From Ignavibacteriaceae bacterium (lineage in GTDB: Bacteria; Bacteroidota; Ignavibacteria; Ignavibacteriales; Ignavibacteriaceae), in the NCBI GenBank assembly GCA_031292465.1, contig JARLHB010000033.1, positions 1 through 33,206 on the forward strand: a stretch of 33,206 bases of DNA, given 5' to 3'. A program made the position numbers and the translations under genes. Numbering within the stretch: position 1 is the stretch's first letter; the number at the start of each line of letters is the position of its first letter. This document shows, in pieces, positions 240 to 33,206 of the stretch. Below the pieces are notes generated by a model. The model made no database searches, was not told the DNA's origin, and worked only from the letters and a program-made list of their open reading frames with translations.

Positions 240-3200
240 TTATTCTTTAACAGTAATTTTTTCAGTACTGCTGTTTCCATAAATTTCGGGATAATACATT
301 AAATAGCCCTGCGCGGGATTAACGTTAATTTTCCCGGGTATTTCTGCCCGGATCATATAAGAGAATTCCATTTGGCTTTTAGTGTTCGTAACAAAAAACG
401 ATACTCTGTCGTCATGGTACTGTTTATCTGCATAGTACGGGTTAACAACGGGTATATATCGCTTCTTATTTTGGCTGGCCTCTTCATTCCGCTTAATTTC
501 ATAAATGCTTTCATCTTTAACCGCTTCAAAGCCGGAAGGCAGCATGTCCTCAAGTATAAAGTATTGAAGGTTATCCTCGTTTGATTCAACTTTAGTCTGA
601 ACAAAAAGAACCTGTCCCGATTTAACTTCGCCTTTAAGCGGCTCTTTTTCGTAAACAATTTTGTCGCCTTCATCAACAGGATTAAGTACAAAATAATTTC
701 TTGTAACAACAAATTTATTTTTATCCGCAGGTTTGTTTTGTCCCTGCGTATAGTATGTATTTAATCCTGAAAAATACAATTTACCCGTTCCGGTTTTTAC
801 AATCTTTATCTTATTTACACCCTGCTTTAATTCATCGTTGTTTAATCCGTTAAGTATTGTTGAAGGTATGTTCTCGTAAACATCATCTTTTGTAAAATGC
901 TTTTCAAATGACTTCTTATTATTAATATAGATAGAAGCAGTAAAATCTGGATTCAGTTCGTTTGTGGTTTTAAGATAATCCGTAAGTGCGAATATTACGG
1001 TTGAGGTTTCCTGCGTGGAATGCCATGAAAATCCCTGCTTCTGCTGAATAAGCCATCTTACTGCTTTGGAAATAAGCGGGGAATACTGCTTATCAAGCAT
1101 AAGCGCTTTAACTGCAAATGCAGTGCTTTGTACTTTATCTTCCTGCCAGGAATAATGCCATTCTTTACCTTTCCAATATGCATAACTATTTTCTTCGGTT
1201 GCCGATTTGCTTAATTTACTTAATGCCTCTTCTAAATTACCGGTGTCTTTAAAATTGTTAAAGGTAATTGCCAGCAGGGATAATGCATACGGATTTAATC
1301 TTTGTTTTAAAAGCTGTACTGCCATTTGTTTAACTAAAGAATCGTTAAACCTTCTATCCTGTTTTGCAATAGTTGAAAGTGAATAAAGCATAAATGCTTT
1401 TGTTGTGAAATTCAATTGCCTGTTATTTTTAAGCTGGGTAATCAGGCTGTTTATGCCATTATTAAATGAGTTTGTGTCAACATTATAGCCCGCCGCTTTT
1501 GCAAGGCTCATTCCATATATAACATAGGCAGTCATATACGGATGCGTCTCATCTACGGACCACCATCCCCACCCGCCGTCTTCATGCTGAAGGTTATAAA
1601 GCCTTTTTAAACCGGCATCAACCATTTTCGGAAGTTCAGCAATGGTTTTGCTTTTAAGCGGCGCATTAATTTCTTTGAATGTTTTTGCAGTTATAATTGT
1701 CGGCAAAAACCTGCTCATTGTCTGTTCAACGCATCCGTAAGGATAACCGGCAAGATCATCAAGCGCTTTTAAAATTGTACCTGCAAGCGACGGGGCTGCC
1801 GAGAATGAAAGCTTTGCAGTTTTCATATTTACACCTGAAGGTATGTTAAATTCCAAATTTGCAACCCCTTCATTAGTATTATCCCAAACAAGCGGTTCTG
1901 ATTTCTTAATACCTGCAGACTGGATGGGAATGTTTAATTCAACTGCATCTGATTCTTCATTTGTTAATGCTTCCGCCGTTATAGTTGCATTGCCGGCTGG
2001 TTTATTAACTTTTACAATCCAGTCTATGCGCGCGTCGGAATCTTTATCAACAACAATTTCACAGCTTCTGTTTGCCTTGCTGCCGGATGAAACTAATCCG
2101 GCTTGTTCTGATTTTGAATTTAGTATTTCAAGGTTTGAAACGTTAAAATTTACCTTTACTTTTTTGCTTTCACTTAAATAATTATGAACAATAGTTGAAA
2201 CAGAAATCTCATCGCCCTCCCTAAAGAAACGCGATGTCTCAAGCCGGACTATTAAATTTTTTCTTGTTATGGTTTTATCAGTGTTCTGACCTACTTTAGA
2301 ATCAGTGGTTATGCCTCTTACTGTTGCCTGCCAGGCAGTTAAGTTATCCGGCATTTTAAATTTTATTTCCGCTTTACCGTCTCCATCGGTTACAACATGA
2401 GCCTTCCATATAACCGCATCAACAAAATTAGTGCGCAGCTCAGGTTGTACAAATTGTTCAGAAGATTTTCCCATTGCTCTCGGAGCCGTAACCATAAGAT
2501 CTGCGGTAATGCTTTTCCCCCCTCCATTTCGCATACTGAAATATCTTTGGGGTACATTTTCAAGGTTGCCGATAAAAATATCTTTTACGGAGTCTCTGCC
2601 TGCAATTACATTTCCAACATCATGCATTGCTCCATAATTGAGCAAAACAAGAATGCTGTATTCCCCTTCTTTTATATTCTTAAACAGGAATTTACCCGAA
2701 GTATCCGCTTTTACCATGTAGAAGTATTTATCGTTATTCAGAAGAACATAGATGTTACTAAAGTCAAAACCCGGATAGTTGATTAGCCTGCCTGATAATG
2801 CAGAATTGCCGTCAGGACTGATATTTTTAATATCAATTAATTTGTCGATTAATGTAGTTCTGCGGCTTGCTCCGAAAGATGAACGGCCCTGCCGGGAATT
2901 ATGCAAAGGCATATATAAATATTCCGGGGAATAGAAAATGGATTTTATATCCTCTGCAGGATCTTCTTTTATAGCATAAATACTTTCATCAACTATTCCG
3001 AATGAGATTTCCGTATTAGGAACGGAATTACCTTTGCTGTCCGTAACTGTAACTTTATATACTGCTGTTTCTCCTGGTTTATATGTGCCGGAGGAAGGCT
3101 TTAAAGATATATTTAAGAATTTGCTCTTATCAAGTACATTTACAGCTTTGGAATAGTTATATATCTGCCCGTCTTTTATAAAAACAATGGCTATATTAAA

Positions 3201-5174
3201 ATTGGGTGAAAATTTTGCATCAGTAAGTTTCAGGTTTAATTCCAGTTTTTTCCCTTCAACATGCCGTACTTCATATCCGAGGAAGGAATTTTTTTCATAA
3301 GATATAAGAACGTCTGCATCATTTTGCGGCAGGGAAATAAAAGCGTCGAGGGTATCACCCAGAACGTAACTTTCCTTATCTGTAATTATTTCCGGGCTGC
3401 CGCCATTCCTGTATGCTTCATAATCTCCTATATAGAATGAACCCTCGGCAGTTATTTTCCGGCCTTTTTCATCATAAGCAATTACGGTGTAATTGTAATT
3501 GCCGTAATAGAGTCCCCCCGGCAAAAAAGAAATTTCTGCCTTGCCAAGTGAATCTGTTACGCCAGATAATGTATCTCCTATAGGCTTGTAATAAGTGCCG
3601 TCATCTTTTCTTTGTTCGGGGTAGTTGAAGGCTGCCTTAAACCTGGTACTTACTGGCTTGTCGGAAAAATCAAAGGCATTTACCCTTATATTTATAAGGT
3701 TCCCGGTTGAGGAGTAGTTCTTTTCAGGCGAAGTGGATATTGTAAAGCTTCCTCTTGTTATCCGTACAGTTGTCGTACCGGATACTGTATTCCTGGATTT
3801 GTCTGTTACTTCCGCAACTATTATATAATTGTAATCTGATTTTAAGTCACCATTTACAGGATAAACTAAATTGAATTTGCCGTCTTTATCAAGTTCACCG
3901 GACATCTGGGTGATAAGTTCGCTTGGATTATAATTTCTTCCGGCAAAGCTTTTGTAAAACCACGAATAATCCGATCCATACCACCACGGATGCCAAATAT
4001 TTTGTTTAAATATTTTAATATCAACATAGCCGGAGGTTACGGGCGACCCGAAATAGTAACCGGCAGAAATTGATGCTTTTATAGTGTCATTATAAGCGAA
4101 TGAATTTTTCCCTGTTTCAACCTTAACAAAATATTCCGGCTTTTTGTATTCCTCAACGGAAAAAGAGCTGTAATAATTCTGCCCGTTTCCGGTAATATTT
4201 ATTGAATACGATCCCGGGTCAGCGTCATTATCAAGAATAAGATCACCGGACAGAGTTCCATATTCGGTTGTTTTCAGTGTTTTTGAATATATATCTATAT
4301 CCTTTGGCGATTTAATTGTAATTGAAAATTCTTCTTCGGGCAAATTTATAAGCGCACCGTTTTTCCTGTCGCGCAAAACAGATTTAAAATATACATGCTG
4401 GCCCGGGCGGTAAACCGGCTGGTTTGTATAAGTGTATCCGATATAATTATTCTGCTCATATCCGGAATAAAAATACGGGCTGCTCAAAATGTTTTCACTG
4501 CCTGTGTTTGCAATTATAATAGTGTTGCTGCTGATGCTCTTTGTTGTACCGTCTTCTGTAAAAAGAAGCACGCCGTTTTTATCGGCAACTGCTTCACCGG
4601 GTTGCCCATCCGTATCAAATATTTTAAATTTTACACCGGTTAAAATTTTCCCGGATTTATTGTCTGTTACAACTGCCAGTATCTGTCCTTTACCGGTTTT
4701 ATATATCATTGTCAGGTTTGAAACTTCAACGCCGCAGTATGCAACACTGCTGTCTTTTACAGCCTGAATAATATAGTCTCCCGGGTCGTCTATTCTTCCT
4801 ATCTTAACATTATGGTTATCATTATTGCTGCTTGTATATATCAAATCATCCCATTCTTTTACTAATTTTGTATATTTTAGAATATCCTGCCCGTTCCTGC
4901 CCCAGATGTCAAAGTTATTGCCTGTATTTTTCATGTTTGCTGTAAGAACAAAATTATCGTAATCAATTACTTTAAATAACTTGAAGTGATAAACAGATTC
5001 ACCGGGGTAGTTTGAGAATAAATCAATAGTAATATCGTTTCCCGGCGAAAACACAGATGAATTGGAGAGGTTGAACCTGTAACTATTACCATCCTTTGTT
5101 TGAAATTGGCCGCCCCAAATGCAAGAGGCTGTTAATAAAATAATAATGCACAGATGTTTTTTAATAATAGTCAT
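240..5174 (-). CDS. Alpha-2-macroglobulin family protein, exported, thioester-containing
   Basis: A 1644-residue protein with a Sec-type signal (two lysines, then a hydrophobic stretch, residues 5-20) and macroglobulin-like beta domains filling most of the length. The family traps proteases: cleavage of a bait region exposes a reactive Cys-Gln thioester that cross-links the protease; bacterial forms are thought to defend the periplasm. The thioester motif is visible as GYPYGCVEQTMSRF with Cys1148 and Gln1151, CxEQ as in bacterial homologues, with Val where animal proteins have Gly. It is followed by an alpha-helical terpenoid-cyclase-like (TED) region with GGWGWW, then a C-terminal beta domain. 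Cys18 sits in a TASC context that is only a poor lipobox, so lipoprotein status is open. It has its own terminator (191-221), and the neighbouring gene ends in a strong terminator at 5322-5361, so it is probably monocistronic. No PbpC-type penicillin-binding partner is adjacent. Family assignment is firm; the target is unknown. Confidence 0.93.
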   Translation of the reverse strand: MTIIKKHLCIIILLTASCIWGGQFQTKDGNSYRFNLSNSSVFSPGNDITIDLFSNYPGESVYHFKLFKVIDYDNFVLTANMKNTGNNFDIWGRNGQDILKYTKLVKEWDDLIYTSSNNDNHNVKIGRIDDPGDYIIQAVKDSSVAYCGVEVSNLTMIYKTGKGQILAVVTDNKSGKILTGVKFKIFDTDGQPGEAVADKNGVLLFTEDGTTKSISSNTIIIANTGSENILSSPYFYSGYEQNNYIGYTYTNQPVYRPGQHVYFKSVLRDRKNGALINLPEEEFSITIKSPKDIDIYSKTLKTTEYGTLSGDLILDNDADPGSYSINITGNGQNYYSSFSVEEYKKPEYFVKVETGKNSFAYNDTIKASISAGYYFGSPVTSGYVDIKIFKQNIWHPWWYGSDYSWFYKSFAGRNYNPSELITQMSGELDKDGKFNLVYPVNGDLKSDYNYIIVAEVTDKSRNTVSGTTTVRITRGSFTISTSPEKNYSSTGNLINIRVNAFDFSDKPVSTRFKAAFNYPEQRKDDGTYYKPIGDTLSGVTDSLGKAEISFLPGGLYYGNYNYTVIAYDEKGRKITAEGSFYIGDYEAYRNGGSPEIITDKESYVLGDTLDAFISLPQNDADVLISYEKNSFLGYEVRHVEGKKLELNLKLTDAKFSPNFNIAIVFIKDGQIYNYSKAVNVLDKSKFLNISLKPSSGTYKPGETAVYKVTVTDSKGNSVPNTEISFGIVDESIYAIKEDPAEDIKSIFYSPEYLYMPLHNSRQGRSSFGASRRTTLIDKLIDIKNISPDGNSALSGRLINYPGFDFSNIYVLLNNDKYFYMVKADTSGKFLFKNIKEGEYSILVLLNYGAMHDVGNVIAGRDSVKDIFIGNLENVPQRYFSMRNGGGKSITADLMVTAPRAMGKSSEQFVQPELRTNFVDAVIWKAHVVTDGDGKAEIKFKMPDNLTAWQATVRGITTDSKVGQNTDKTITRKNLIVRLETSRFFREGDEISVSTIVHNYLSESKKVKVNFNVSNLEILNSKSEQAGLVSSGSKANRSCEIVVDKDSDARIDWIVKVNKPAGNATITAEALTNEESDAVELNIPIQSAGIKKSEPLVWDNTNEGVANLEFNIPSGVNMKTAKLSFSAAPSLAGTILKALDDLAGYPYGCVEQTMSRFLPTIITAKTFKEINAPLKSKTIAELPKMVDAGLKRLYNLQHEDGGWGWWSVDETHPYMTAYVIYGMSLAKAAGYNVDTNSFNNGINSLITQLKNNRQLNFTTKAFMLYSLSTIAKQDRRFNDSLVKQMAVQLLKQRLNPYALSLLAITFNNFKDTGNLEEALSKLSKSATEENSYAYWKGKEWHYSWQEDKVQSTAFAVKALMLDKQYSPLISKAVRWLIQQKQGFSWHSTQETSTVIFALTDYLKTTNELNPDFTASIYINNKKSFEKHFTKDDVYENIPSTILNGLNNDELKQGVNKIKIVKTGTGKLYFSGLNTYYTQGQNKPADKNKFVVTRNYFVLNPVDEGDKIVYEKEPLKGEVKSGQVLFVQTKVESNEDNLQYFILEDMLPSGFEAVKDESIYEIKRNEEASQNKKRYIPVVNPYYADKQYHDDRVSFFVTNTKSQMEFSYMIRAEIPGKINVNPAQGYLMYYPEIYGNSSTEKITVKE

Positions 5175-16496: not shown

Positions 16497-18002
16497 TTAT
16501 AAATCTTCTATTGCGTCAATCCCTTCCGGCAGAGGAAGGAAGAATTTAATTGGCTGAATAGAGCCGTCACGCTTAATAAGTTTTTCAACCCGTTTTTTAA
16601 TAATAACACTATGCTCTATCCGTACATCGTCTTCTACTATTGAACCGAAAATATAACTAGTTCCCCTTATTACCACGTTATTCCCAATTATTACAGGGAA
16701 TTCATCATTCCCGGTCATTGTTACGCTGGATTCGATAGTGGTATTATTGCCGATTGAAACATTACCTCTAATTATGTTGCCGGATAATACTTCAACTCCG
16801 TCTCCAATCGTCATTGACTGCCCGCGGAAACAGGATAAATGAACATTTGACCGTACAGTAACATTTTTCCCGAACTTAACGTTCCCGCTTACAGAAACAT
16901 TCTTGGAAAGCGCCGTACTGTAATTTAATTTTACGCCCTTGCCTATATGAGCGCCTTTGCCGATATAAATATCAAGCGGAATATTAAGCTTGTCCATTTC
17001 TATAATGTTCTCAACCACTGATTCGTCAATAAAGAAATCATCCGGGTCATCAATTTCAATTAAGTCTTTTACTTTTTCATAAATCGTTTTTCTTGCTATC
17101 GCTTCCATTTCTTTTAATACGGATTTATTGTTAAAACCCATAACAACATATGGCTCACGCGGACTGATTGCGCCTATTGTATAATGCTTTTTATTAAACA
17201 TAGAGATCAAATCAGTAATGTAGATCTCATTCTGGACATTGTTGCTTTCGATTGTATGTATAAGCGCGATCAGTTTTTTATAATCAAATGCATAAACGCC
17301 GGAGTTAAACTCATTATTTTCAATGAGCTCTTTTCTGCTGAATGAATACATTCTATTATTATATTGAACGCGGTAAGGCTTATCTTCCGGGAGAGAAAGG
17401 ATGTCTTTATGCTCACGAATCTCAATTACTCTTCCAAAGTCTTCACCTGAAGAATTGCCGTTCTCATCTTCGCGTTTAACGCGGATTATTCTGCCGTAAG
17501 CGTTTTCTTCGGGCTTTCCGTCAAAAATGCCGGTCAGTACCATCATATCGCTTTTGGTTTTGATAAACTCTTGGCGGAAGCTTTGTATAGTTTCCATATC
17601 GATTAATCCCATATCGCCGGGTAATACATAAATAATTCCGTCAAAATCTTTACCGTCTATGTTCTTAAGCCCGATTTGGACAGCATGCCCGGTACCGTTT
17701 TGAACTTCCTGGTATGCGAAAGAAGTTGAATCTTTCTTCCCGATCACTTCCAATACGTCTTTGGCTTTTATACCGACGACTATAATTATATTAAGATCTT
17801 TAATTGCGCTACTGCATGCATTGTAAACGCGTTCAACAGTTGGAATGCCCCAGATCTTATGAAGCATTTTTGATTTCTGTGATTTTATTCTTTTCCCGTG
17901 CCCGGCTGCAAGTATTATTGCCGCTTCCGGTATATCTAAATTTATCCGGGAAGAGTTTTTATCAATCAACTGATGTATTTCTTTATTTTCCTGAAATTCC
18001 AT
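16497..18002 (-). CDS. GlmU-like sugar nucleotidyltransferase with left-handed beta-helix
   Basis: 501 residues. Residues 25-275 are a GlmU-type nucleotidyltransferase: LAAGHGKRIKSQKSKMLH (31-48) for nucleotide binding, NGTGHAVQ (102-109), PGDMGLI with Asp130 as metal ligand, AYGRIIR, FNSGVYAF and NEIYITDLI. Residues about 345-466 form hexapeptide repeats of a left-handed beta-helix. The GlmU acetyltransferase residues (HLSYIGD- and NYDG-like motifs) are not visible, so this is probably a UTP-sugar-1-phosphate uridylyltransferase whose C-terminal helix has lost or changed acetyltransferase activity. There is also an extra segment at about 177-222 within the first domain. It is the last gene of the operon and shares one base with the stop of the O-antigen-ligase-like gene (TAATG at 18002). 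Sugar specificity is unknown. Confidence 0.8.
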   Translation of the reverse strand: MEFQENKEIHQLIDKNSSRINLDIPEAAIILAAGHGKRIKSQKSKMLHKIWGIPTVERVYNACSSAIKDLNIIIVVGIKAKDVLEVIGKKDSTSFAYQEVQNGTGHAVQIGLKNIDGKDFDGIIYVLPGDMGLIDMETIQSFRQEFIKTKSDMMVLTGIFDGKPEENAYGRIIRVKREDENGNSSGEDFGRVIEIREHKDILSLPEDKPYRVQYNNRMYSFSRKELIENNEFNSGVYAFDYKKLIALIHTIESNNVQNEIYITDLISMFNKKHYTIGAISPREPYVVMGFNNKSVLKEMEAIARKTIYEKVKDLIEIDDPDDFFIDESVVENIIEMDKLNIPLDIYIGKGAHIGKGVKLNYSTALSKNVSVSGNVKFGKNVTVRSNVHLSCFRGQSMTIGDGVEVLSGNIIRGNVSIGNNTTIESSVTMTGNDEFPVIIGNNVVIRGTSYIFGSIVEDDVRIEHSVIIKKRVEKLIKRDGSIQPIKFFLPLPEGIDAIEDL

Positions 18003-20071
18003 TAAGACTCCAATTTATTTTCAGTAATTTTTTTGTTTGAATAATATAAAGCAATATTTAATCCTAAGGTAAACCAGATAATTGTAATAATTTCATGATC
18101 GCCGAAATTATATTCAGTTAAGCCGGATACTAAGAAGGCGCAAAGGCCGCCAAGCGCACCGAGCGCATAGGAAGAAATAAATGGTTTATCTTTTGTCTCC
18201 CTATATATTTTTATATCAATCAGAATAATTTTTAAGATAATTAAACAAAAAGCCAGGAACCCGAAAAGCCCGAGCGTAACAAGTTCATGCACAAAGTTGT
18301 TGTGCATATGGCCCTGAATTTCTTTATCATAAGGATGCTTATACTGTATGTATAATTTAGCAAGGTCAATGTCACCCACTCCGAAAACCGGATGGTCTTT
18401 GAACATTTTGAAGCCCGCTTTCCACAGTCCGATTCTCCCTCTGTTCGAAGGATTATAAGGGTCAATAATACTTAACAGCCTGTTTGGTTTTGCATATGTT
18501 AAAATAATATTGTTGCCGAAACTGCCGATACTTTCCGGTGCTGAATCCAATTTATCTTTAAACAATACCTTTATAGTATTGTTTAAAGGATAATCGAGTT
18601 CATAAAAGTTTCCTTTGGAATCAGCCGCAAATAATTTATTATTAGAAAGCTGCCATGTAAAGGCCATTGAAATAGATTTGTTCCGGTCAAGTAAAGTCAG
18701 CGTGTCCGTGCTAATTGAAAAAAGGCTAAGCCCTTTTTTATCCGATATAAATAACTTACCGTCTATATAAAAGTAGCAGTCGATGTCAGAATTGTCCTGA
18801 TAAGTTACACAAGGTTTTCCTTCGGGAAGCCCGTTATGCAATTTATATGCGGAAATAACATCCGGTTGTTTAAATGTAATCAGATAGCTTGAGTCTGCGC
18901 TGATACTTGTGAATTTATTTAAATCAGGATATCTAACGTTATCTGCCGGATTCTTTGGATCTCTGAATACAGACAGCCCGCTGTCTATATCTTCTATATA
19001 CAGGTACTTCCCCAGTGCAAAAGAATTTGTAAAGCCGGGAGTGATAAATTCGTCTTTATATTCAAAATTATCCGCTGTCTTTTTAAGTGCAAAAAATCTT
19101 GAATCAATACAGGAAGCTACATAATAGTCATCATTCCATTTTGTTAAAGAATATACAGGGGATTTTACGTCTATTTTTTTAATATAGCTGGTATCATTAT
19201 AAACAACTATGCCGTTGTTAAAATCGCTTATATATTCTTTATCTCCATCTGTAATAACGCCGTAAGGCATCCCTTTAGTTTTTAGGCTGAATTCCTTTTT
19301 AAGGGTAGAATTATTAAAACTGTAGATTTCAATTTTGTGTACGTTCTTTGAATAAAAGAATGCAAATACAACCAATACGCATACCGGAATTAATACTTTC
19401 CATTGTTTCTTCATTAGAAGTATTACAAATATTCCTGCGGCTACTCCTATCCAGCCCGTCCTTTTATATGTTGATAGTAAAGCTGCGAGGGAAAGTAAAA
19501 ACCCAATTATCAGAAAAATTCTGTTTTTCAGGTTTACTTTTTCATTTATTGCAAATGCAAATAAGAACACTACGGTAAAACTTGTAATCTCACTTGCTGT
19601 AATGGGATATTGGAAAAGAGACGGCCCGGATTCTTTAATGTTGTATAATCCGTATATGAAATATTTATATGAGAAATACAGATATATTAAAATAGTAACT
19701 AATGACGCTCCGATATAAATTTTAAAATATCTCTTAATCCTTGTATAATCAGTACAGGCAGCCAATGTTGTATATATTATTGGGATTAAAAGAGCCCGTT
19801 TTGAAAAATACAAATAAGCCTGCGGGTTGTTCCCGGAAAACACTGCTGATAATAATTCCGCAAGCAGGAACCAAATGAATAAAAACTCCAGGCCTGTCTT
19901 TTTAAATTGATTTTCACGGGTTATAAAGTAACGGGCTAAGATGAGCACTAAAGCCCCGAAATATCCAAGTTGATTTACAAATATTGAATTTGAAATACTA
20001 AGCAGGAATAATATAATGAAGAAAGCAATAAACCTGTCTAATATTTTCACATTCTTTTTGTTTGGTTCCAT
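18002..20071 (-). CDS. O-antigen-ligase-like polytopic protein with inserted beta-propeller
   Basis: 689 residues. The first 240 are membrane helices of the WaaL/Wzy superfamily, ending with a TYKRTGWIG segment (201-209) and one more helix. Where the large periplasmic loop should begin there is a soluble insert, about residues 245-540. The loop then resumes with the family motifs NRGRIGLWKAGFKMF (543-557), DHPVFGVG and HNNFVHELVTLGLFGF (590-605), and the last helices follow. Without the insert the protein is about 395 residues, normal for the family. The insert has about seven units spaced 37-45 residues apart, each like ITDGDKEYISDFNNGIVVYN, IDGKLFISDKKGLSLFSI or SNNKLFAADSKGNFYELD, which suggests a seven-bladed propeller. 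WaaL-type enzymes join undecaprenyl-linked glycans to lipid A core (or proteins) in the periplasm. Its neighbours, an MsbA-type exporter and a core-type glycosyltransferase, fit this. Confidence 0.78.
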   Translation of the reverse strand: MEPNKKNVKILDRFIAFFIILFLLSISNSIFVNQLGYFGALVLILARYFITRENQFKKTGLEFLFIWFLLAELLSAVFSGNNPQAYLYFSKRALLIPIIYTTLAACTDYTRIKRYFKIYIGASLVTILIYLYFSYKYFIYGLYNIKESGPSLFQYPITASEITSFTVVFLFAFAINEKVNLKNRIFLIIGFLLSLAALLSTYKRTGWIGVAAGIFVILLMKKQWKVLIPVCVLVVFAFFYSKNVHKIEIYSFNNSTLKKEFSLKTKGMPYGVITDGDKEYISDFNNGIVVYNDTSYIKKIDVKSPVYSLTKWNDDYYVASCIDSRFFALKKTADNFEYKDEFITPGFTNSFALGKYLYIEDIDSGLSVFRDPKNPADNVRYPDLNKFTSISADSSYLITFKQPDVISAYKLHNGLPEGKPCVTYQDNSDIDCYFYIDGKLFISDKKGLSLFSISTDTLTLLDRNKSISMAFTWQLSNNKLFAADSKGNFYELDYPLNNTIKVLFKDKLDSAPESIGSFGNNIILTYAKPNRLLSIIDPYNPSNRGRIGLWKAGFKMFKDHPVFGVGDIDLAKLYIQYKHPYDKEIQGHMHNNFVHELVTLGLFGFLAFCLIILKIILIDIKIYRETKDKPFISSYALGALGGLCAFLVSGLTEYNFGDHEIITIIWFTLGLNIALYYSNKKITENKLES

Positions 20072-20073
20072 AA

Positions 20074-21942
20074 TTAATCCCTAAACTGCATTTCATAAAA
20101 TTTATTATACAAACCGTTTTCATCACGTATAAGTTCTTCATGTGTTCCTGTCTGTATTATTTTGCCTTTGTCGAGCACTATAATTCTGGTAGCGTTTCTA
20201 ATGGTGCTTAAACGGTGTGCAATAACAATAGAAGTCCTGTTAATCATCATCCTTTCAATAGCTTCCTGAACAAGTAATTCGGATTCATTGTCCAGAGCAG
20301 AGGTTGCTTCATCAAAAATCATTAGTTGAGGATTTTTTAATATTGCTCTTGCAATTGAAATCCTTTGGCGCTGCCCGCCGGAAATTTTTAAGCCTCTTTC
20401 ACCAATTACCGTCTCATAACCGTCAGGTAGTTCCATAATAAAATTATGTGCATTGGCAGTCTTGGCTGCTTCGATAATTTTATCGACAGGATAGTTATCA
20501 AGTCCGTATGCTATATTATTTTTTATTGATTCATTGAACAAAATAGTTTCCTGGGTAACAATACCCATTAATGCTCTTAGGTCCTGAACTTTTACTTTTT
20601 TAGTATCTATTCCGTCTACAAGAATCTGGCCGCCTGTAGGATCATAAAACCGCGGGATAAGATCGACTAATGTAGATTTACCACCACCGCTTGGCCCAAC
20701 GAGGGCTACAATTTCGCCCTTCCTCACCTCGAAATTAATATCATCCAATATCAGATCATCAGAATCATCATAATGGAATGAAAGATGTTTGAAAGCTAAA
20801 GCGTTTGTAAAGGTTTTTAATTCACCCGCATTATCTATGTCTTTAATTGCCGGCTCAGTGTCAAGGATTTCAAATATCCTGTCTCCGGCTGCGCTTGATT
20901 CCTGGATACGGTTATTAACTGTGCTCAACTCTTTTATCGGAGGCATTGTCTGGAATATAGCAAGAAGGAAGCCCATAAATTCTGCGGCTTTAAGAGTGTG
21001 AGACTGAAGGACAAGCACCCCGCCGTAATATATAATAACTGCGCCGACAATAACACTTAAAAACTCAGTGATGGGCGAGGATGAATTTCTAATCCTTACA
21101 ATTCTCAGCATCATTCTAAAATAGCTGTAAGTCTCTCTTTTGAATTTATTATTTTCATATCCTTCCATGCCAAAGGCTTTAACAATTTTAACGCCTGAAA
21201 TTGTTTCCTGAAGGATACTTGTTATGTCTGCCATCTTAGCCTGTATTGCAGTGCTGTGTTTTCTTAATTTAAGTCCAATGCCTGCAATAATTAACATAGA
21301 GAATGGAAGTACAATAAATGCAAGCAGCGTAAGCTTCCAGCTGATGCTTACTGCTATGCCGATAAATACAATAATTGTTAACGGTTCCCTGATAAGATTT
21401 AAAAACCCTGCCGAGATACTGCTTTGTACAACATTTACATCATTTGTAATCCGGGAAATTAAGTTCCCTACACGTTCCTGTTTAAAGTAACTCATCGGAA
21501 GCTGGTGAAGATGCTTATAAGCTGCATTGCGAAGGTCCTTCATAGAACCTTCCTCAACATAGGAAAGGAAGTAAGCCTGAAGGTAACCGAAAATATTCTT
21601 TAACAGGAAGGCAGCTACTACAAGAAAACAGACCCTTAACAAAGAATCGAGTTTATCTCCCTGGAGGACGAAATTATTGAATGAGTTGGAAAGGTTTTGT
21701 CCGAATTTTGTAATCCAATCCGGTAAAACACTGGTAGTATTGGCAACGGGAGACTGGGTTATTTGTACTTTAGTTTGCACGCTCTGTGTTTGCCCTTCCT
21801 GAAATAAAGTTTCAAGAAGAGGTATTGTAAGGTAAATTGAAAGTCCGTTAAAAACTGCAAACATGATAGTGCAAACAATGGAAATAGACAGATGTTTCCA
21901 GTATGGCTTAACAAAATTTAATATGCGTAAATAGGTTTTCAT
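20074..21942 (-). CDS. MsbA-type ABC exporter (lipid A/lipid-linked glycan flippase)
   Basis: 622 residues in the half-transporter layout: six membrane helices (about 15-340), then a nucleotide-binding domain with Walker A GPSGGGKST (416-424), Q-loop TQET, signature ISGGQRQR (520-527), Walker B LMIFDE (540-545) and H-loop His576. It resembles lipid exporters of the MsbA type that flip lipid A core across the inner membrane. A long insert of polar residues (about 48-92) separates the first two helices, a larger periplasmic loop than in E. coli MsbA. It starts 33 nt after the glycosyltransferase and ends 2 nt before the ligase-like gene, so function in envelope glycolipid export is likely; the exact substrate is not shown. 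Confidence 0.9.
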   Translation of the reverse strand: MKTYLRILNFVKPYWKHLSISIVCTIMFAVFNGLSIYLTIPLLETLFQEGQTQSVQTKVQITQSPVANTTSVLPDWITKFGQNLSNSFNNFVLQGDKLDSLLRVCFLVVAAFLLKNIFGYLQAYFLSYVEEGSMKDLRNAAYKHLHQLPMSYFKQERVGNLISRITNDVNVVQSSISAGFLNLIREPLTIIVFIGIAVSISWKLTLLAFIVLPFSMLIIAGIGLKLRKHSTAIQAKMADITSILQETISGVKIVKAFGMEGYENNKFKRETYSYFRMMLRIVRIRNSSSPITEFLSVIVGAVIIYYGGVLVLQSHTLKAAEFMGFLLAIFQTMPPIKELSTVNNRIQESSAAGDRIFEILDTEPAIKDIDNAGELKTFTNALAFKHLSFHYDDSDDLILDDINFEVRKGEIVALVGPSGGGKSTLVDLIPRFYDPTGGQILVDGIDTKKVKVQDLRALMGIVTQETILFNESIKNNIAYGLDNYPVDKIIEAAKTANAHNFIMELPDGYETVIGERGLKISGGQRQRISIARAILKNPQLMIFDEATSALDNESELLVQEAIERMMINRTSIVIAHRLSTIRNATRIIVLDKGKIIQTGTHEELIRDENGLYNKFYEMQFRD

Positions 21943-21975: not shown

Positions 21976-22719
21976 TTATTTATTTTTCTGTAATTCCCAA
22001 ATCTTCATATAAGTAAGGAATGTTGTAAATGAATCAATGAATGCGATGCAAAGGCCATGGACTCCGTCTCTGAATCCTTTAAGTGCAAAAAAAGTTTTGT
22101 AAAAAGAAGCTATGCCATGAGCGATAATTGTAAAGCCGTTAACTCTGCCTTTTGTTTTATATCTTTCCAATGCCTGCAGGGAAGAATAATGATTAATTTT
22201 TGATATAGCACTTTCAATTGTGTTATAAGTAAAATGAAGCATAGGGCTTTTCAATTTACCAGTATTTCCGTTCACAATAAATCCTTCATGTACAAGGCGG
22301 TCAGTAACCGATGTTTTACATTTTTTTAACAATCTTAACTGGGAATCTTTTTCCCATCCGCAGGTTTTAATAAGTTTATGTAAAAAGTAATTATTCCTCG
22401 GTATTGAATAACCGTCAAACGAATTTAAATCCACATTTAAGATTTCATGTTTTAGCTCTTCAGAAATCCTTTCATCTGCATCAAGGCTTAGAACCCATTC
22501 GTTATTTGCAAGGCTAAGCGCATAACTTTTCTGAGGTGCAAAGCCTTCCCATTTCTTTACGAAAAATTTATCGGTATATTTTTTTGCTATGTCAATGGTT
22601 TTATCAGTGCTTTCAGAATCCACAAGAATTATTTCATCTGCCCAGGAAACACTTTTTAGGCATTCCTCAATTTGCAATTCCTCGTTTTTCGTTATTATAA
22701 TTACGGAAATTTTTTCCAT
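21976..22719 (-). CDS. Family 2 glycosyltransferase, WaaE/KdtX-like
   Basis: 247 residues, a GT-A fold enzyme. ISVIIITKNEE (4-14) opens the nucleotide-sugar site, ILVDSESTDKT (31-41) follows, and LSLDADERI (78-86) contains the DxD metal motif (Asp80, Asp82). The NNEWVLSLDADE spacing, the GFAPQKSYAL segment and the hydrophobic C-terminal stretch match lipopolysaccharide-core beta-1,4-glucosyltransferases of the WaaE/KdtX group, which act at the cytoplasmic membrane face. Its place just before the MsbA-type exporter supports a role in core or lipid-linked sugar synthesis. Donor and acceptor are not known. Confidence 0.85.
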   Translation of the reverse strand: MEKISVIIITKNEELQIEECLKSVSWADEIILVDSESTDKTIDIAKKYTDKFFVKKWEGFAPQKSYALSLANNEWVLSLDADERISEELKHEILNVDLNSFDGYSIPRNNYFLHKLIKTCGWEKDSQLRLLKKCKTSVTDRLVHEGFIVNGNTGKLKSPMLHFTYNTIESAISKINHYSSLQALERYKTKGRVNGFTIIAHGIASFYKTFFALKGFRDGVHGLCIAFIDSFTTFLTYMKIWELQKNK

Positions 22720-22761: not shown

Positions 22762-23805
22762 CTATAGAATACCTTTTAAACCGCATCCATCCTGCAGGTG
22801 AATAGAATAAATTGGTTTCAGAGTTTTATAATTAATTATCTCAATAAATGAATTTTTCTGAAATCCTTTATCGAAGATAAGCAAGTCTCCCGTCGCGAAG
22901 AAATTTCTCACCGTTCCGGCATCCATAGTTTTAATTACTTTTTTACTATCTATAGAATAGATGAATATCTTTGAATTCTTTTCATTTCCTGTTTTTCCTT
23001 TTGTTGAAGGATTTGTGGTTGAAAAGAATAAATACTTATCATCCTGCGACCAGTCTGCCTGGTTTAATCTTTGGCTTGATGAAGAAATCAACTCTACTTT
23101 ACCATCAGAATTAGTTTGAAGATAAATAGATGTTTGCATTGAATCTACAGCAAAAATTGAATACTTGCTCCCGGGAGAGGTTGTTAAGCCAATTTTTTCA
23201 ATAATCTGCGGGTATCCTTCTTTAAGTATGTTAAACTTTTTAGACTTGCTTGAAACAGTTTTTCCTAAACCATTAAAGATAAATGTTTGCTGATTTACAA
23301 AATCAGCCGAATTCCTGTCAAATGTGTTTAAAATAACCCGGAATGTATTATCCTGTCCCCACATAGTAAAAACCTGCACCCCGTTGCCAATCTTTTTTAT
23401 AAATTTTACTTTTGATGAATCAAGGCTTATACGGTATAATTTTATTCCGCTTATATACGGCAGTATAGCTTTCTTGCCATAATCTTCGGCAGTAAGGAAA
23501 AAGAGAGACCTTTTATTTAGAGAATAAGACAGCTTAATTACTTTTTCTTTATTCTTTGACCAAAACTTAGTGATACTCTTTTCTAACTTACCGGACTTTT
23601 GAACCTGCGAAACAAACTTATAAATACCCGGATTTCCATCAATCATTCCGACAAAATAAAACTCACCCGTCGCAAATGAATTATTTGGTTTATAGTTACC
23701 GGCCGTAGTATCGTTTTGACCGGGTTCAGAATTAGTTTTCCTATTTTTACACCCGGAAATGAATAAAATACCAGTAATTAAAAAGATAAATATTTTACTA
23801 TACAT
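22762..23805 (-). CDS. Lipoprotein with WD40/TolB-like repeats, unknown function
   Basis: 347 residues with a lipoprotein signal (MYSKIFIF, hydrophobic core, ISGC with Cys19). The mature part is beta-rich with repeating strands of propeller type, for example GEFYFVGMIDGNPGIYKFVS, ADWSQDDKYLFFSTTN and SKIFIYSIDSKKVIKTMDAG. No catalytic motif is visible. TolB-like and PD40 repeat proteins usually bind partners at the envelope. The start overlaps the end of the M50 protease gene by 8 nt, so the two are translated in sequence. It sits in an operon whose ligase-like protein also carries a predicted propeller. Confidence 0.6.
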   Translation of the reverse strand: MYSKIFIFLITGILFISGCKNRKTNSEPGQNDTTAGNYKPNNSFATGEFYFVGMIDGNPGIYKFVSQVQKSGKLEKSITKFWSKNKEKVIKLSYSLNKRSLFFLTAEDYGKKAILPYISGIKLYRISLDSSKVKFIKKIGNGVQVFTMWGQDNTFRVILNTFDRNSADFVNQQTFIFNGLGKTVSSKSKKFNILKEGYPQIIEKIGLTTSPGSKYSIFAVDSMQTSIYLQTNSDGKVELISSSSQRLNQADWSQDDKYLFFSTTNPSTKGKTGNEKNSKIFIYSIDSKKVIKTMDAGTVRNFFATGDLLIFDKGFQKNSFIEIINYKTLKPIYSIHLQDGCGLKGIL

Positions 23806-28106: not shown

Positions 28107-30266
28107 TTAAAGAAGGAATAAAGATAACAGCACTATTATTCCCATAACCATTCCTGTTGTAAGCATACCCAGTAAGGGAATCATAATAAGGCTTGCTAAT
28201 AATGAACCTGCACAGCCGCCAACTAAATCCGCCGAATAAAGCGATGATATTGTATCCTGATGAACTTTTACATTAAAAAAGCTTGCAAACGCAAAAATAC
28301 CTGCAACAAGAAACCCGGTTAAAAATAATAAAATCAGGTTCTCATATAATCCTGTAATTAGATTTCCGGTTATGACAAAGCCGAAATAAAGATTAATTAT
28401 CCCAAGAAGCAGTACAAGCCCGAGACCGGTAAAACGGAAGATATTTTTATTTATTCCTTTATGGTATAATCCATTAATAAAAGCCGCACCTGCAGTAAGC
28501 CCCGTCATAAACGCCGTAAGCAGTATTCCAATGTTCTGAAAAAGTATGCCGTTTATTGATTGATAATAGAGAATTAACATCGTTTCTAATATCATTCCCG
28601 AAAAACCGGCTATAAATACTAATATAATTCCGCTGAATGATGTACGGTACCTGATAAATAAAAAGAAGCATAGTAATAAAACTGATATTATTGCTATATA
28701 TATTTTACTCTCTTTAATTATTGTATAAACATGGCCGGGATTAAACCAGTTGAAATCGGGGAAAAATTTTGAAAGCCATATTGCCGTTGTGTATTGGTAA
28801 CAAACCGGCTGTACGTCTGTATTTATTTGTACATTGCCTGCTGAAAGGATATTTGCAATTTGATTATATCTATCGTTTGTGTACAAATACTTAATGTATA
28901 AAGGTATAACATATTTTGTCGGAATATTCCTGTCACTGAATCTTTTGGCCAGTACCTCAGGGCTTTTCTCAAGGGGCGTACCGGAAGCAGTAATAATACA
29001 TGTGGAACCGGGAAGGGCAACAACATCCTGAAATACCGATTTAAGGGTATTATAAATGCTCGCATTACGGCTTATCATTAGAGGTGTCCATAAATTCTCT
29101 GCTGATTTTAACCTTATTGCTGTAATCCCGTTATTATTTAAATGTTTATTGCATAATTCAAAAAATTCTTTTGTATAGAACCGGTTTGACTGTCCTGAAG
29201 AAGGCTCAGGCATACCGACTAATATTACATCATAATTTCCGCAGTATTTAAGATACGCTCTAGGATCCGATATAATTAGATTTACCCTTTTTGAATCAAG
29301 GGATTTATTTATTTCTTCCGGCAGAAATTTACGCACAGTATTGATTAATTTTTCATTTAGCTCCACATAGTCAATCTTAAGGGAATTATATTTTAGCAGT
29401 TCATAAATTGTTCCCTCAATCCCTCCGCCAAGTACAAGCACGGATTTAGGATCGGGATGCTGGGTAAGAACCATATGCACAAACTCTTCCGAAGCTGTAC
29501 TTTCGTTCTCAAACGAAAGGGCATCATTTTGAAAGACAGAAGTCTGCCCCAGATAAGAAGTAACAGTAACTCGGCTGTATGGAGTATCTTTCGATTCTAC
29601 CAGATAGGGATGATTAAGCTTTGTCATTAAATAGTCAATCGACGATGAATATGCAATTGCAGCTATAATCAGTATTATAAAATAGGTCGCCGTATAAATG
29701 AAATATTTCTCTTTGTTTCTTACCGCAAAATAGAACACCGGAGTGATGGATATAAAGCTGCAGATAAATACTGCATTTAAATTCTGTAAGCCGAATATTA
29801 TTAATATTGTAGATATAAGTCCCCCTGCAATTCCACCAGCGCTTTCTACCGCATAAGCTTTTGCCAATGAATTTTTACCTTTAATATAACTTCCCGCTGC
29901 ATGCTGGAACATAATTCCAAGCAAAAAACTGACTGGAAGGATAGCAATAGATATGCCTGCAATTTGCGGAAGGAACTGCAAATAAGCGCCCGGCACACCA
30001 CCGAATATTATTCTAACGCTTCGGATAAATAAAATATCAGCCGGTAAAAGAACTCCCCAGGCAAGAAAAAATATTTTAAGTGATTTTGGTGTTTTATAAA
30101 AGAAGTATTTACCGGTTAATGCTCCGGCTGCAGTTCCGAGCAGCCAGATGCCGAGGGCAATAATATAAATTAAATCAATTCCGTAGAATGCTACGTTAAG
30201 TTCTCTAAAGATTACAACCTGTCCAAGGATTGAAATAAAACCTATTATAAATAGATAAAAAGGCAA
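28107..30266 (-). CDS. Membrane protein with embedded spermidine-synthase-like domain
   Basis: 719 residues: about six membrane helices (1-205), a spermine/spermidine-synthase-type Rossmann domain (about 210-450), then about six more helices (520-719). The membrane halves share a repeat (AVESAGGIAGGLISTI near 139-154 and SADLVGGCAGSLLASL near 678-693), as in MFS-like duplications. The Rossmann part shows the nucleotide loop LVLGGGIEG (278-285), acidic Glu302, DPRAYL with Asp334, and NRFYTKEFF (361-369). The catalytic Asp of true aminopropyltransferases is replaced by GMPEPSS (351-357), so polyamine synthesis is doubtful. The TTG start at 30266 gives the family N-terminus with GFISILGQVVIFREL. 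It lies 11 bp after the Memo-AMMECR1 gene, so it is probably co-transcribed. Substrate unknown. Confidence 0.8.
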   Translation of the reverse strand: MPFYLFIIGFISILGQVVIFRELNVAFYGIDLIYIIALGIWLLGTAAGALTGKYFFYKTPKSLKIFFLAWGVLLPADILFIRSVRIIFGGVPGAYLQFLPQIAGISIAILPVSFLLGIMFQHAAGSYIKGKNSLAKAYAVESAGGIAGGLISTILIIFGLQNLNAVFICSFISITPVFYFAVRNKEKYFIYTATYFIILIIAAIAYSSSIDYLMTKLNHPYLVESKDTPYSRVTVTSYLGQTSVFQNDALSFENESTASEEFVHMVLTQHPDPKSVLVLGGGIEGTIYELLKYNSLKIDYVELNEKLINTVRKFLPEEINKSLDSKRVNLIISDPRAYLKYCGNYDVILVGMPEPSSGQSNRFYTKEFFELCNKHLNNNGITAIRLKSAENLWTPLMISRNASIYNTLKSVFQDVVALPGSTCIITASGTPLEKSPEVLAKRFSDRNIPTKYVIPLYIKYLYTNDRYNQIANILSAGNVQINTDVQPVCYQYTTAIWLSKFFPDFNWFNPGHVYTIIKESKIYIAIISVLLLCFFLFIRYRTSFSGIILVFIAGFSGMILETMLILYYQSINGILFQNIGILLTAFMTGLTAGAAFINGLYHKGINKNIFRFTGLGLVLLLGIINLYFGFVITGNLITGLYENLILLFLTGFLVAGIFAFASFFNVKVHQDTISSLYSADLVGGCAGSLLASLIMIPLLGMLTTGMVMGIIVLLSLFLL

Positions 30267-30277
30267 TGTTGTAATCT

Positions 30278-31816
30278 TTATTTAAATTCCGATTCATCAA
30301 AAACTTCAGCCTGAAAAGTGGAAAGCTGTGCTCCTTGTTTCCAATCTCCTGCCTGAAGTCCGGCTTTTCTGCAGAGATTGTCAAGCAGTTCTTCTTTATT
30401 CCAGCCCTGCTCGGTTGCTACCTGGGGCAGAAATACGGCCTGCTTGCCGCTTTTTCTAATAACAACTCCGTCTCTTCCCAGAATTATTTCAGCGTCGCTT
30501 TTAATAGGTTTGTAAGGTGTTAATGCAGAAATCTCAATAGTTACCTGAGAAAGTTCATCTTTGGAAAGGGGATTGAACCTTTGATCATTGAAAGCTGCCT
30601 GTAAAGCCATTGAACCGACAACTTCGCATAACGGCAAATCTTCACGCATATAACCTATACAGCCGCGCAGGTCTTTGTGTTTTCTTAAAGTTACAAAAGC
30701 GCCGATATTCTTTTCAGCATTAGCGGAAAATCCGCGTGCAAGCGGAACCGTTTCAGATTCCAGATATTGCGTAATAGACAGCCGGGCAAATGATAGAAGC
30801 GCTTTCTTGTCCTGGTCATTTAATTCAAAGCTTTTTTCTTCGGGTGAAGGGTTGTTAAAGACATAGTTCTTAGGCGGCTGGCTGTTTACAGAAAATATAA
30901 CTGAACCATACCCGACAACCTTTTGGCGGTTGCCGACAAGAGTACTTCCTGAGTTTGCATAACTTACTATAGTTCCGCAGTCAGCGCCTAATTCTTTTGA
31001 AGCAGCCATAGCCGCTATTACCGGACCTTCCCCGCATGCGCTTGTAGCAAGGTTTGCTATCCCTTCTGTAGGCTGCTTTTCTGCAATTAGTTCAAACTTT
31101 TTAAAATCAAGAGATGCTGCCGCCTCAAGTGTATTCTTATCCACGTGTTCTGCATCTTCATAGGCAGGATAATGTGAAAGATCCGAACTGGCTACAATTA
31201 ATGCATTCTTATCCTTAACAACTCTTGCAAGCGCTTTGCCGAATTTTACGCACATTTCATAATCAGGCGTGCCGATTACAACCGGCAGAATTTTTACATC
31301 AGGAAATAAATGCTGAATGAAAGGGAGCTGGACTTCTATAGAATGTTCCTGCGTATGAACAGATTCATAAAATACACAGTCATTATCAACTTCTACCATT
31401 TCTTCAGCAGTCTGCGTATCAATTTTTGAAATGCCAAGCGGAGTTTGAAACCCTGAACCGGGGTAAAACGATATCTTGTTAAATCCGGCTGTTGTATGAT
31501 TTGTGCCAAGTATAACTATCAAATCATATTTATAATTTTTTGCCTGGTTATAAGAATCGGCGATAATTTGTCCGGCATAAATGTATCCTGCATGTGGAGC
31601 TATTAAAGCGATCGGCTTGCCGGTATTTTCGGTAACTGCATTATTCAAAAAGTACTCTATAGATTTAAGAAGTTTTGATGAGTCTGCCGGGTAAAACTGT
31701 CCGGCGAAAGCAGGTTTACGGATTTGCCCGTTGGAATCGTTCCCGCTGCATTGTACGTTTCCAGTAACACTTAATGATGTCATAATTATTACCAAATAAA
31801 AATATTTTTTAAGCAT
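30278..31816 (-). CDS. Exported Memo-AMMECR1 fusion (AmmeMemoRadiSam proteins B and A)
   Basis: 512 residues. An N-terminal signal sequence (MLKKYFYLV plus hydrophobic stretch, residues 4-19) is followed by a Memo domain (about 34-312): PHAGYIYAG with His75, GTNHTTAG with His107, SSDLSHYP with Asp212/His215 and SACGEGP with Cys261. His75, His107 and Cys261 correspond to the metal-binding His, His and Cys of human MEMO1. After a short linker comes an AMMECR1 domain (about 333-509) with the diagnostic LRGCIGYM (383-390) and FNDQRFNPLS. In the AmmeMemoRadiSam system these two are usually separate genes next to a radical SAM gene; here they are fused and apparently exported. The radical SAM gene lies upstream on the same strand. 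The system's reaction is unknown. No proper lipobox (residues NVQC). Confidence 0.9.
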   Translation of the reverse strand: MLKKYFYLVIIMTSLSVTGNVQCSGNDSNGQIRKPAFAGQFYPADSSKLLKSIEYFLNNAVTENTGKPIALIAPHAGYIYAGQIIADSYNQAKNYKYDLIVILGTNHTTAGFNKISFYPGSGFQTPLGISKIDTQTAEEMVEVDNDCVFYESVHTQEHSIEVQLPFIQHLFPDVKILPVVIGTPDYEMCVKFGKALARVVKDKNALIVASSDLSHYPAYEDAEHVDKNTLEAAASLDFKKFELIAEKQPTEGIANLATSACGEGPVIAAMAASKELGADCGTIVSYANSGSTLVGNRQKVVGYGSVIFSVNSQPPKNYVFNNPSPEEKSFELNDQDKKALLSFARLSITQYLESETVPLARGFSANAEKNIGAFVTLRKHKDLRGCIGYMREDLPLCEVVGSMALQAAFNDQRFNPLSKDELSQVTIEISALTPYKPIKSDAEIILGRDGVVIRKSGKQAVFLPQVATEQGWNKEELLDNLCRKAGLQAGDWKQGAQLSTFQAEVFDESEFK

Positions 31817-32033: not shown

Positions 32034-33206
32034 TTACTGCCAAACTCCGGCAATTAAATGTTTACAGTAATCGCATCTTCCTTTTGATATTTTTTTATCG
32101 AGCACAAAAAAATTAGACCTTTTAATTATTTCTTTTCCGCAATTGGGGCAATAAGTATTATTACCGGGATGCCCGGGTACATTCCCTACATAAGCATAAT
32201 GAATGCCTTTCTTCATTGCAGTGTCCCTTGCAAATTCAAGAGTAGAAACAGGCGTGGAAGGAAGATTAATAAGCTTATAGTCCGGGTGAAATCTTGTAAA
32301 GTGAATGGGCACGTCAGGCCCAATTTCCCCGGCAATCCAATCGGTTAAATTATTAAGCATATCTTTGGAATCATTTAACGTAGGCACTACTAAGTTTACA
32401 ATTTCCAGGTGGACTTTAGTTCTTGAAATTTGTTTTATACTGTTTAACACAGGCTTCAATTCAGCGCTGCAAACATTTCTGTAAAAATTTTCGCTGAAGC
32501 CTTTCAAATCAATTTTTATTGCGCTTAAAATATTACACATATCCGTAAGAGGGGCGCTATTCATAAAACCGCAGCTTACCAAAACCGACCTTATTTTCTT
32601 TTCTCTTCCGCGTTTTGCTATGTCTAATAAATATTCTGTAAATACAGTCGGTTCATTATACGTAAATGCTATTACCGGGGTACTCTGCGAAGCAGCGGAT
32701 TCAACTATTGTTTCAGGCGAAACAAACTGTGTTGAAAAATCTTCAGGCTTTGATTGTGAGATCTGCCAGTTCTGGCAAAATTTACATGCGAGGGGGCAGC
32801 CTGCAGTTGAAAGCGAATAAGCTTCGGAGCCGGGCAGGAAGTGATAGAATGGTTTCTTCTCAATCGGGTCTGTATGAATTGCGGCCGGGTGTCCGTAAAC
32901 AAGGCTTTTCAGTTCTCCGTTAATATTCATCCTTGCCCTGCACTTGCCGCGTTCCCCGCTTTTGATAAAACAGCCCTGGGCGCAAAGCAGGCATCTTATA
33001 GTTTCTTCTTTGTGGTTATGCTGTTTTGAAAAATCTACATCCCGCGTAGAATGGCAGTTTGTACAGTCTGCATTTTTAGAGGCAGTTGAAACCCAATACC
33101 GTGCAGCGGGTGCATTTTGCAGTATAGCTTCTTCTATAATTGAATCAATAAAGTGGCCGGCTTTGGCAGATGTTATGGATTTTAATGTTGCCGGATGTGA
33201 AAGAGC
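32034..33206 (-). CDS. AmmeMemoRadiSam system radical SAM enzyme (partial, 5' end outside window)
   Basis: 390 codons are visible; the frame stays open through the right edge at 33206, so the start is not in the window. An ATG at 32930 is internal: the 92 codons before it are open and contain conserved family sequence. Visible order: an N-terminal region with CTNCH (visible residues 48-52), a four-Cys segment CLLCAQGC ... GKC (Cys72, 75, 79, 89) typical of this family, DPIEKKPFYHFLPGS, the radical SAM motif CPLACKFC (Cys137, 141, 144), FTYNEPT, and a C-terminal zinc-ribbon-like pair CPNC and CDYC ending in HLIAGVWQ. The enzyme is the third partner of Memo and AMMECR1; its substrate is unknown. 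The CxxCH motif looks like a heme-c site, which is odd for a SAM enzyme expected in the cytoplasm. Confidence 0.92.
   Translation of the reverse strand, partial: ALSHPATLKSITSAKAGHFIDSIIEEAILQNAPAARYWVSTASKNADCTNCHSTRDVDFSKQHNHKEETIRCLLCAQGCFIKSGERGKCRARMNINGELKSLVYGHPAAIHTDPIEKKPFYHFLPGSEAYSLSTAGCPLACKFCQNWQISQSKPEDFSTQFVSPETIVESAASQSTPVIAFTYNEPTVFTEYLLDIAKRGREKKIRSVLVSCGFMNSAPLTDMCNILSAIKIDLKGFSENFYRNVCSAELKPVLNSIKQISRTKVHLEIVNLVVPTLNDSKDMLNNLTDWIAGEIGPDVPIHFTRFHPDYKLINLPSTPVSTLEFARDTAMKKGIHYAYVGNVPGHPGNNTYCPNCGKEIIKRSNFFVLDKKISKGRCDYCKHLIAGVWQ

Follow-up and report, generated by a model that had tools for sequence, protein, structure and literature searches.

A predicted seven-bladed β-propeller directly before the catalytic loop of an O-antigen-ligase-type protein in Ignavibacteriales

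The 33,206-nt stretch of DNA analyzed here (the window; contig JARLHB010000033.1 of an Ignavibacteriaceae bacterium, assembly GCA_031292465.1) encodes an O-antigen-ligase-type (Wzy_C) membrane protein that carries a predicted seven-bladed β-propeller, putatively of the LVIVD type, directly before its catalytic periplasmic loop. The gene (18002–20071, minus strand, as are all features given below) starts with ATG and encodes 689 residues, of which residues 244–528 (18488–19342) make up the propeller. This architecture is well supported, and the fusion is a fixed feature in much of the order Ignavibacteriales rather than a curiosity of a single genome. In the reading that we favor, and hold at about an even chance, the protein is a lipopolysaccharide (LPS) O-antigen ligase whose LVIVD-type propeller, inserted once, handles the glycan substrate beside the active site. 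Computation brought out the architecture, an apparent single gain, the conservation of the fusion, the catalytic residues, the linkage to msbA, the periplasmic topology and a conserved propeller face.

Wzy_C is the sole Pfam domain found in the protein at E-values up to 1 (75.3 bits versus a gathering score of 31.7, E = 5.6e-21), and the match is split over two stretches. In a genome-wide scan, profile halves 2–60 and 75–149 flank an insert of ~290 residues; it is because of this insert that a general Pfam search yields two half-matches in propeller ligases. The last third of the protein matches the profile of WaaL (PDB 7tpg, E = 2.7e-6). In this profile alignment, from which positions were counted, R546 aligns with R265 of WaaL, and H588 and H590 with H311 and H313. 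The predicted protein resembles Cupriavidus WaaL (PDB 7tpg/7tpj) in having twelve helices and a large periplasmic catalytic loop after helix 9, and the R546/R265 and H590/H313 positions are kept. Unlike WaaL, whose 7tpg chain has 413 residues, it carries a seven-bladed insert of ~285 residues before the catalytic arginine. A histidine base in WaaL has been noted by a recent review (PMC12203961). An IctB identity was rejected, as TIGR00947 scored 40.8 bits against a curated cut-off of 366.4.

Predicted membrane helices 1–9 (AlphaFold2 secondary structure and positive-inside pattern) occupy residues 1–240 (19352–20071), and helices 10–12 (AlphaFold2 model) residues 592–688 (18008–18298). R204, in the loop between helices 7 and 8 (19460–19462), is Arg in 51 of 54 relatives, Lys in two and Met in one; we take it to be the counterpart of the known WaaL arginine. 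The insert is followed by a return linker (residues 529–545, 18437–18487; family pattern KRSRLxSIxDPYxPSN), in which D537 and N543 are invariant and R531 is present in 52 of 54 sequences, and by the catalytic periplasmic loop (residues 541–591, 18299–18451). The first-pass annotation had located the insert directly before this loop, and the loop motif R546-W550 ... H588-H590 does come right after it. Invariant in the family are R546, H588, H590, N591, N592 and E653, with R546, H588 and H590 counted in 54 of 54 sequences.

Conservation of the WaaL histidine and arginine positions also bears on whether the protein might be a polymerase (Wzy) instead of a ligase, with the propeller aiding chain-length control. 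Pfam Wzy_C covers ligases and polymerases alike, most relatives carry further Wzy_C genes and Wzz families are present, all of which would fit a polymerase. However, this gene lies in an msbA operon, not in a polysaccharide cluster, and is present in a single copy per genome across the order; we regard a polymerase as quite improbable.

The structure of the whole ligase was predicted with AlphaFold2 from 54 aligned full-length relatives, all taken from named genomes. The resulting model (pLDDT 90.9, pTM 0.85) has 12 membrane helices arranged around the insert: nine helices come first, followed by 28 β-strands (residues 244–528), by the catalytic loop and by the remaining three helices. Modeled alone, the insert again displayed 28 strands, or seven times four (pLDDT 94.6, pTM 0.90). 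Foldseek searches against PDB with either the whole ligase or the insert alone returned β-propellers as best matches (RCC1, beta-TrCP, WD40, BamB, Tako8), those for the insert alone having E-values of about 1e-10 and TM-scores (query) of up to 0.65. The insert profile, too, matches the designed propeller Tako8 (E = 7.3e-6). Pfam LVIVD (PF08309) was matched in 15 of 54 inserts (best E = 2.8e-13), while the window's own insert gave no match at E 0.1. Judging by the Pfam and Foldseek matches, the insert shares with LVIVD, YncE and BamB the propeller fold, a ~42-residue repeat and the DxDSGL motif; those propellers, however, are free-standing or surface proteins, whereas this one is embedded in a membrane glycosyltransferase. 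The earlier proposal of a seven-bladed propeller, made of about seven units at residues ~245–540, is thus borne out by both the 28 predicted strands and the fold matches.

Blades were assigned from the strand order in the predicted secondary structure. Six of them are complete and four-stranded (269–300, 306–342, 348–381, 389–425, 432–464 and 470–507), and blade 7 combines N-terminal strands C/D (244–264) with C-terminal strands A/B (514–528). Because blade 7 is built from both chain ends, the entry and exit of the insert are neighbors within one sheet. With both ends on this blade, the propeller would therefore stand on the loop and leave the ligase fold undisturbed. Both junctions lie on the top face, defined by the usual convention as that of the BC and DA loops. 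From the chain topology and pTM we infer how the propeller may pack on the ligase. The numbers of Lys and Arg per loop fit the positive-inside rule with the insert outside, in agreement with the periplasmic placement proposed for it in the first-pass annotation.

How well is the insert conserved? Its length is held at 278–296 residues across the 54 sequences of the family, but in sequence it has diverged more quickly than the ligase portion (median identities of 25.6% and 50.8%, respectively). All 30 relatives aligned first have it, including those from single-contig genomes G013 and G037, and it is therefore neither an assembly nor a chance artefact; the 77 genomes described below, single-contig ones among them, likewise rule out chance or misassembly. 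Conservation is higher in the top-face loops than in the bottom-face loops (1.81 versus 1.43 bits, shuffle p about 0.02); of the 30 insert positions with the strongest conservation, 16 fall in the former. The signal stems from blades 7/1 to 3, with motifs TxGR, SDYENG, PSP, LDTR, SPG and DxDSG. By family consensus, the corresponding top-face BC loops in the window are SDFNNG of blade 1 (residues 282–287, 19211–19228; family SDYENG), IDSR of blade 2 (residues 322–325, 19097–19108; family LDTR), which contains D323 and R325, and the LVIVD-like DIDSG of blade 3 (residues 361–365, 18977–18991; family DxDSGL). The loop residues D323, R325, D361, D363 and G365 are near-invariant. These residues and the constant length make it highly improbable that the propeller is mere structural filler that binds nothing specifically, even if its faster divergence and its dispensability in sister species would agree with that.

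The conserved face is the side of the ligase junction, and this matters for a second explanation, according to which the propeller is a docking scaffold. It would bind MsbA, an Lpt component, Wzz or an envelope lipoprotein and so couple ligation to flipping or export, leaving the glycan untouched. Propellers often serve as scaffolds that bind proteins, and the bacterial protein closest in fold is BamB, itself a scaffold in the BAM complex; the linkage to msbA is also tight. On the other hand, a conserved face turned to the ligase speaks against docking, as does the lack of a neighbor specific to the propeller form: the operon lipoprotein and msbA also accompany propeller-free ligases. We consider docking less likely than glycan binding, but a serious rival to it.

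The genomic context is as follows. Located 2 bp upstream of the ligase gene is a gene for an MsbA-type lipid A-core flippase (20074–21942; TIGR02203, E = 1.7e-159, under its curated cut-off), and msbA directly precedes the ligase in 55 of 73 named loci as well as in Kryptonia. Further upstream are a Pfam-assigned family 2 glycosyltransferase (21976–22719), whose homolog directly follows the ligase in many relatives, and a lipoprotein of the ligase operon with weak propeller matches (22762–23805). This lipoprotein had been put forward in the first-pass annotation as a docking partner of the propeller. The idea did not hold up, since the homolog occurs upstream of msbA with both ligase types and in a Kryptonia genome, and is thus not specific to propeller ligases. 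Downstream, with a 1-bp overlap, lies the gene for a GlmU-like nucleotidyltransferase/hexapeptide protein (16497–18002; ORF, Pfam and NCBIfam). This protein has 501 residues, falls under every NCBIfam GlmU cut-off and follows the ligase in part of the order. WaaA and Wzz families were present in all six genomes tested; these bacteria are therefore equipped for long-chain LPS.

Elsewhere in the window, a 1644-residue bacterial alpha-2-macroglobulin with MG2, bait region, A2M, TED and bMG10 domains is encoded at 240–5174. A Memo-AMMECR1 fusion protein and a radical SAM protein are encoded side by side at 30278–31816 and 32034–32930, which we take to be the AmmeMemoRadiSam arrangement. A 719-residue protein (28107–30266) has a spermine/spermidine synthase domain at residues 258–413 only, with no Pfam match in the rest of the sequence.

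How widespread is the fusion? A search for it elsewhere, advised by the first-pass annotation, detected the propeller ligase in 77 of 164 genomes and 39 of 68 genera of the order Ignavibacteriales, one per genome, and within the order the propeller is confined to this ligase. The sequenced isolate Stygiobacter electus 09-Me is among the carriers (L075). The frames are of ~690 residues; shorter ones exist, some of them at contig ends. Of the 97 nearest genomes, about half contain full-length relatives. Matches spanning the insert in the named collection come nearly all from Ignavibacteriota (Ignavibacteriaceae, Melioribacteraceae) or from MAGs with more general labels (Bacteroidetes, Chlorobiaceae, unclassified bacterium), and strong matches among 297 genomes of the phylum come from Ignavibacteriales only. 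Among the matches listed for 99 genomes of the phylum, Wzy_C matches split at the insertion site in ~690-residue frames were likewise restricted to this order, and no other Wzy_C proteins with an insert at the same site were seen. The insert is thus not a common feature of the family, in line with the first-pass annotation. A 534-residue frame in G137:C7 has a partial Wzy_C match (77–148).

Homologs of about 380–404 residues that lack the insert, yet can be aligned to the sequence on either side of it, are found in Kryptonia, Krumholzibacteriota and some other lineages. We built a tree of the ligase part with the insert columns removed (a quick method, with SH-aLRT values and without bootstrap). 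In this tree, the propeller-bearing proteins group into a single clade (SH-aLRT 99) adjoined by Kryptonia (92). The Kryptonia homologs (L096, L097 and L101) also lie beside msbA; their sequences align before and after the insertion point, and the complete insert-free copies have 380–388 residues. Since there is one propeller clade beside insert-free Kryptonia, one gain suffices, and the tree supports the view that the propeller was probably gained once. No free-standing close relatives of the propeller were detected, weaker matches (E = 3e-15 and up) being in generic propeller proteins. The nearest non-ligase relatives (G102:C20:15854-16468, G111:C32:15454-16062 and G097:C1:27379-28002; E = 3e-15 to 2e-11) reside within ~1180-residue proteins elsewhere in the phylum, and from sequence similarity these proteins are a possible source family of the insert.

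We also located msbA in genomes of the order that have no propeller ligase and read the next gene. In eleven genomes (G001, G007, G008, G009, G010, G011, G024, G030, G065, G077 and G078) the msbA slot is taken by a propeller-free Wzy_C ligase (L142–L144, L146–L150, L157, L158 and L160), whereas in others, such as G040, G083, G080 and G092, no ligase directly follows msbA. The slot ligases of G001, G007, G010 and others, which come from the same genus, share the Wzy_C family with the propeller ligase, and several are then followed by a GlmU-like gene, but they differ in having a WHND histidine motif, a length of 385–430 residues and no insert. Ten of the slot ligases were complete and included in the tree, where all of them group in a distant, separate clade. 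This WHND-type clade joins the tree by a long branch, its separation from the fused clade being independent of the exact join. Their position rules out that propeller-free ligases of the same genus are recent losses of the insert. It follows that the slot was refilled by ligase replacement and that the insert was not trimmed. The common slot in these eleven genomes suggests that both kinds of ligase share one job. The propeller is not indispensable to the function of the msbA slot, since related species do without it.

Taken with the conserved arginine and histidines, the msbA linkage makes a lipid A-core:O-antigen ligase the best reading of the protein's probable activity. Such an enzyme, WaaL-type and of the GT-C fold, would move finished polysaccharide from undecaprenyl diphosphate onto lipid A-core, the acceptor being supplied by flipping through the neighboring MsbA. 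Having entered once, after membrane helix 9 and ahead of the catalytic periplasmic loop, in an ancestor of the order, the propeller would bind part of the polysaccharide donor or of the core acceptor and would position or select the bound substrate beside R546/H590. Substrate handling thus appears to be the most likely role of the propeller, presumably through glycan binding. Glycan binding is favored because the conserved face is on the ligase side, no neighboring gene is peculiar to loci with the propeller form, and there is a precedent in PorZ. This propeller protein of type IX secretion binds anionic LPS (A-LPS) via its polysaccharide (PMC8545088). PorZ, whose propellers are also seven-bladed, is a precedent in function; it is not a membrane enzyme but a protein of its own at the cell surface, with a CTD and two propellers. 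Against glycan binding, propellers bind proteins as often as glycans. A more specific version, in which the propeller reads the glycan within the active-site loop and admits only the right chains or core acceptors as a form of quality control, is one that we offer tentatively.

O-oligosaccharyltransferases belong to the Wzy_C superfamily. Together with protein binding by propellers, this would be compatible with yet another scenario, namely that the glycan is transferred to protein, by O-oligosaccharyltransferase activity or by attachment to exported proteins, with the propeller recruiting the protein acceptor. PorZ may be cited here as well, since it ties propellers, A-LPS and protein modification together in type IX secretion (PMC8545088). 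However, neither PglL_A nor Wzy_C_2 was matched in Pfam at E-values up to 1, by which a PglL-type enzyme was rejected, the closest solved relative is WaaL, and the msbA linkage points to lipid A-core. A protein acceptor is accordingly improbable.

We found no description in the open-access literature of an O-antigen ligase or Wzy fused with a β-propeller. The parts are of known kinds, but their combination, the position at the catalytic loop and the order-wide conservation are, as far as we can see, undescribed. Little is understood of donor and acceptor choice by O-antigen ligases, in which the catalytic loop is usually lean. The presence of a soluble domain in this loop across an order suggests that the loop tolerates large insertions. 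Moreover, propeller and propeller-free ligases occupying one gene slot constitute a natural comparison, which makes substrate choice testable.
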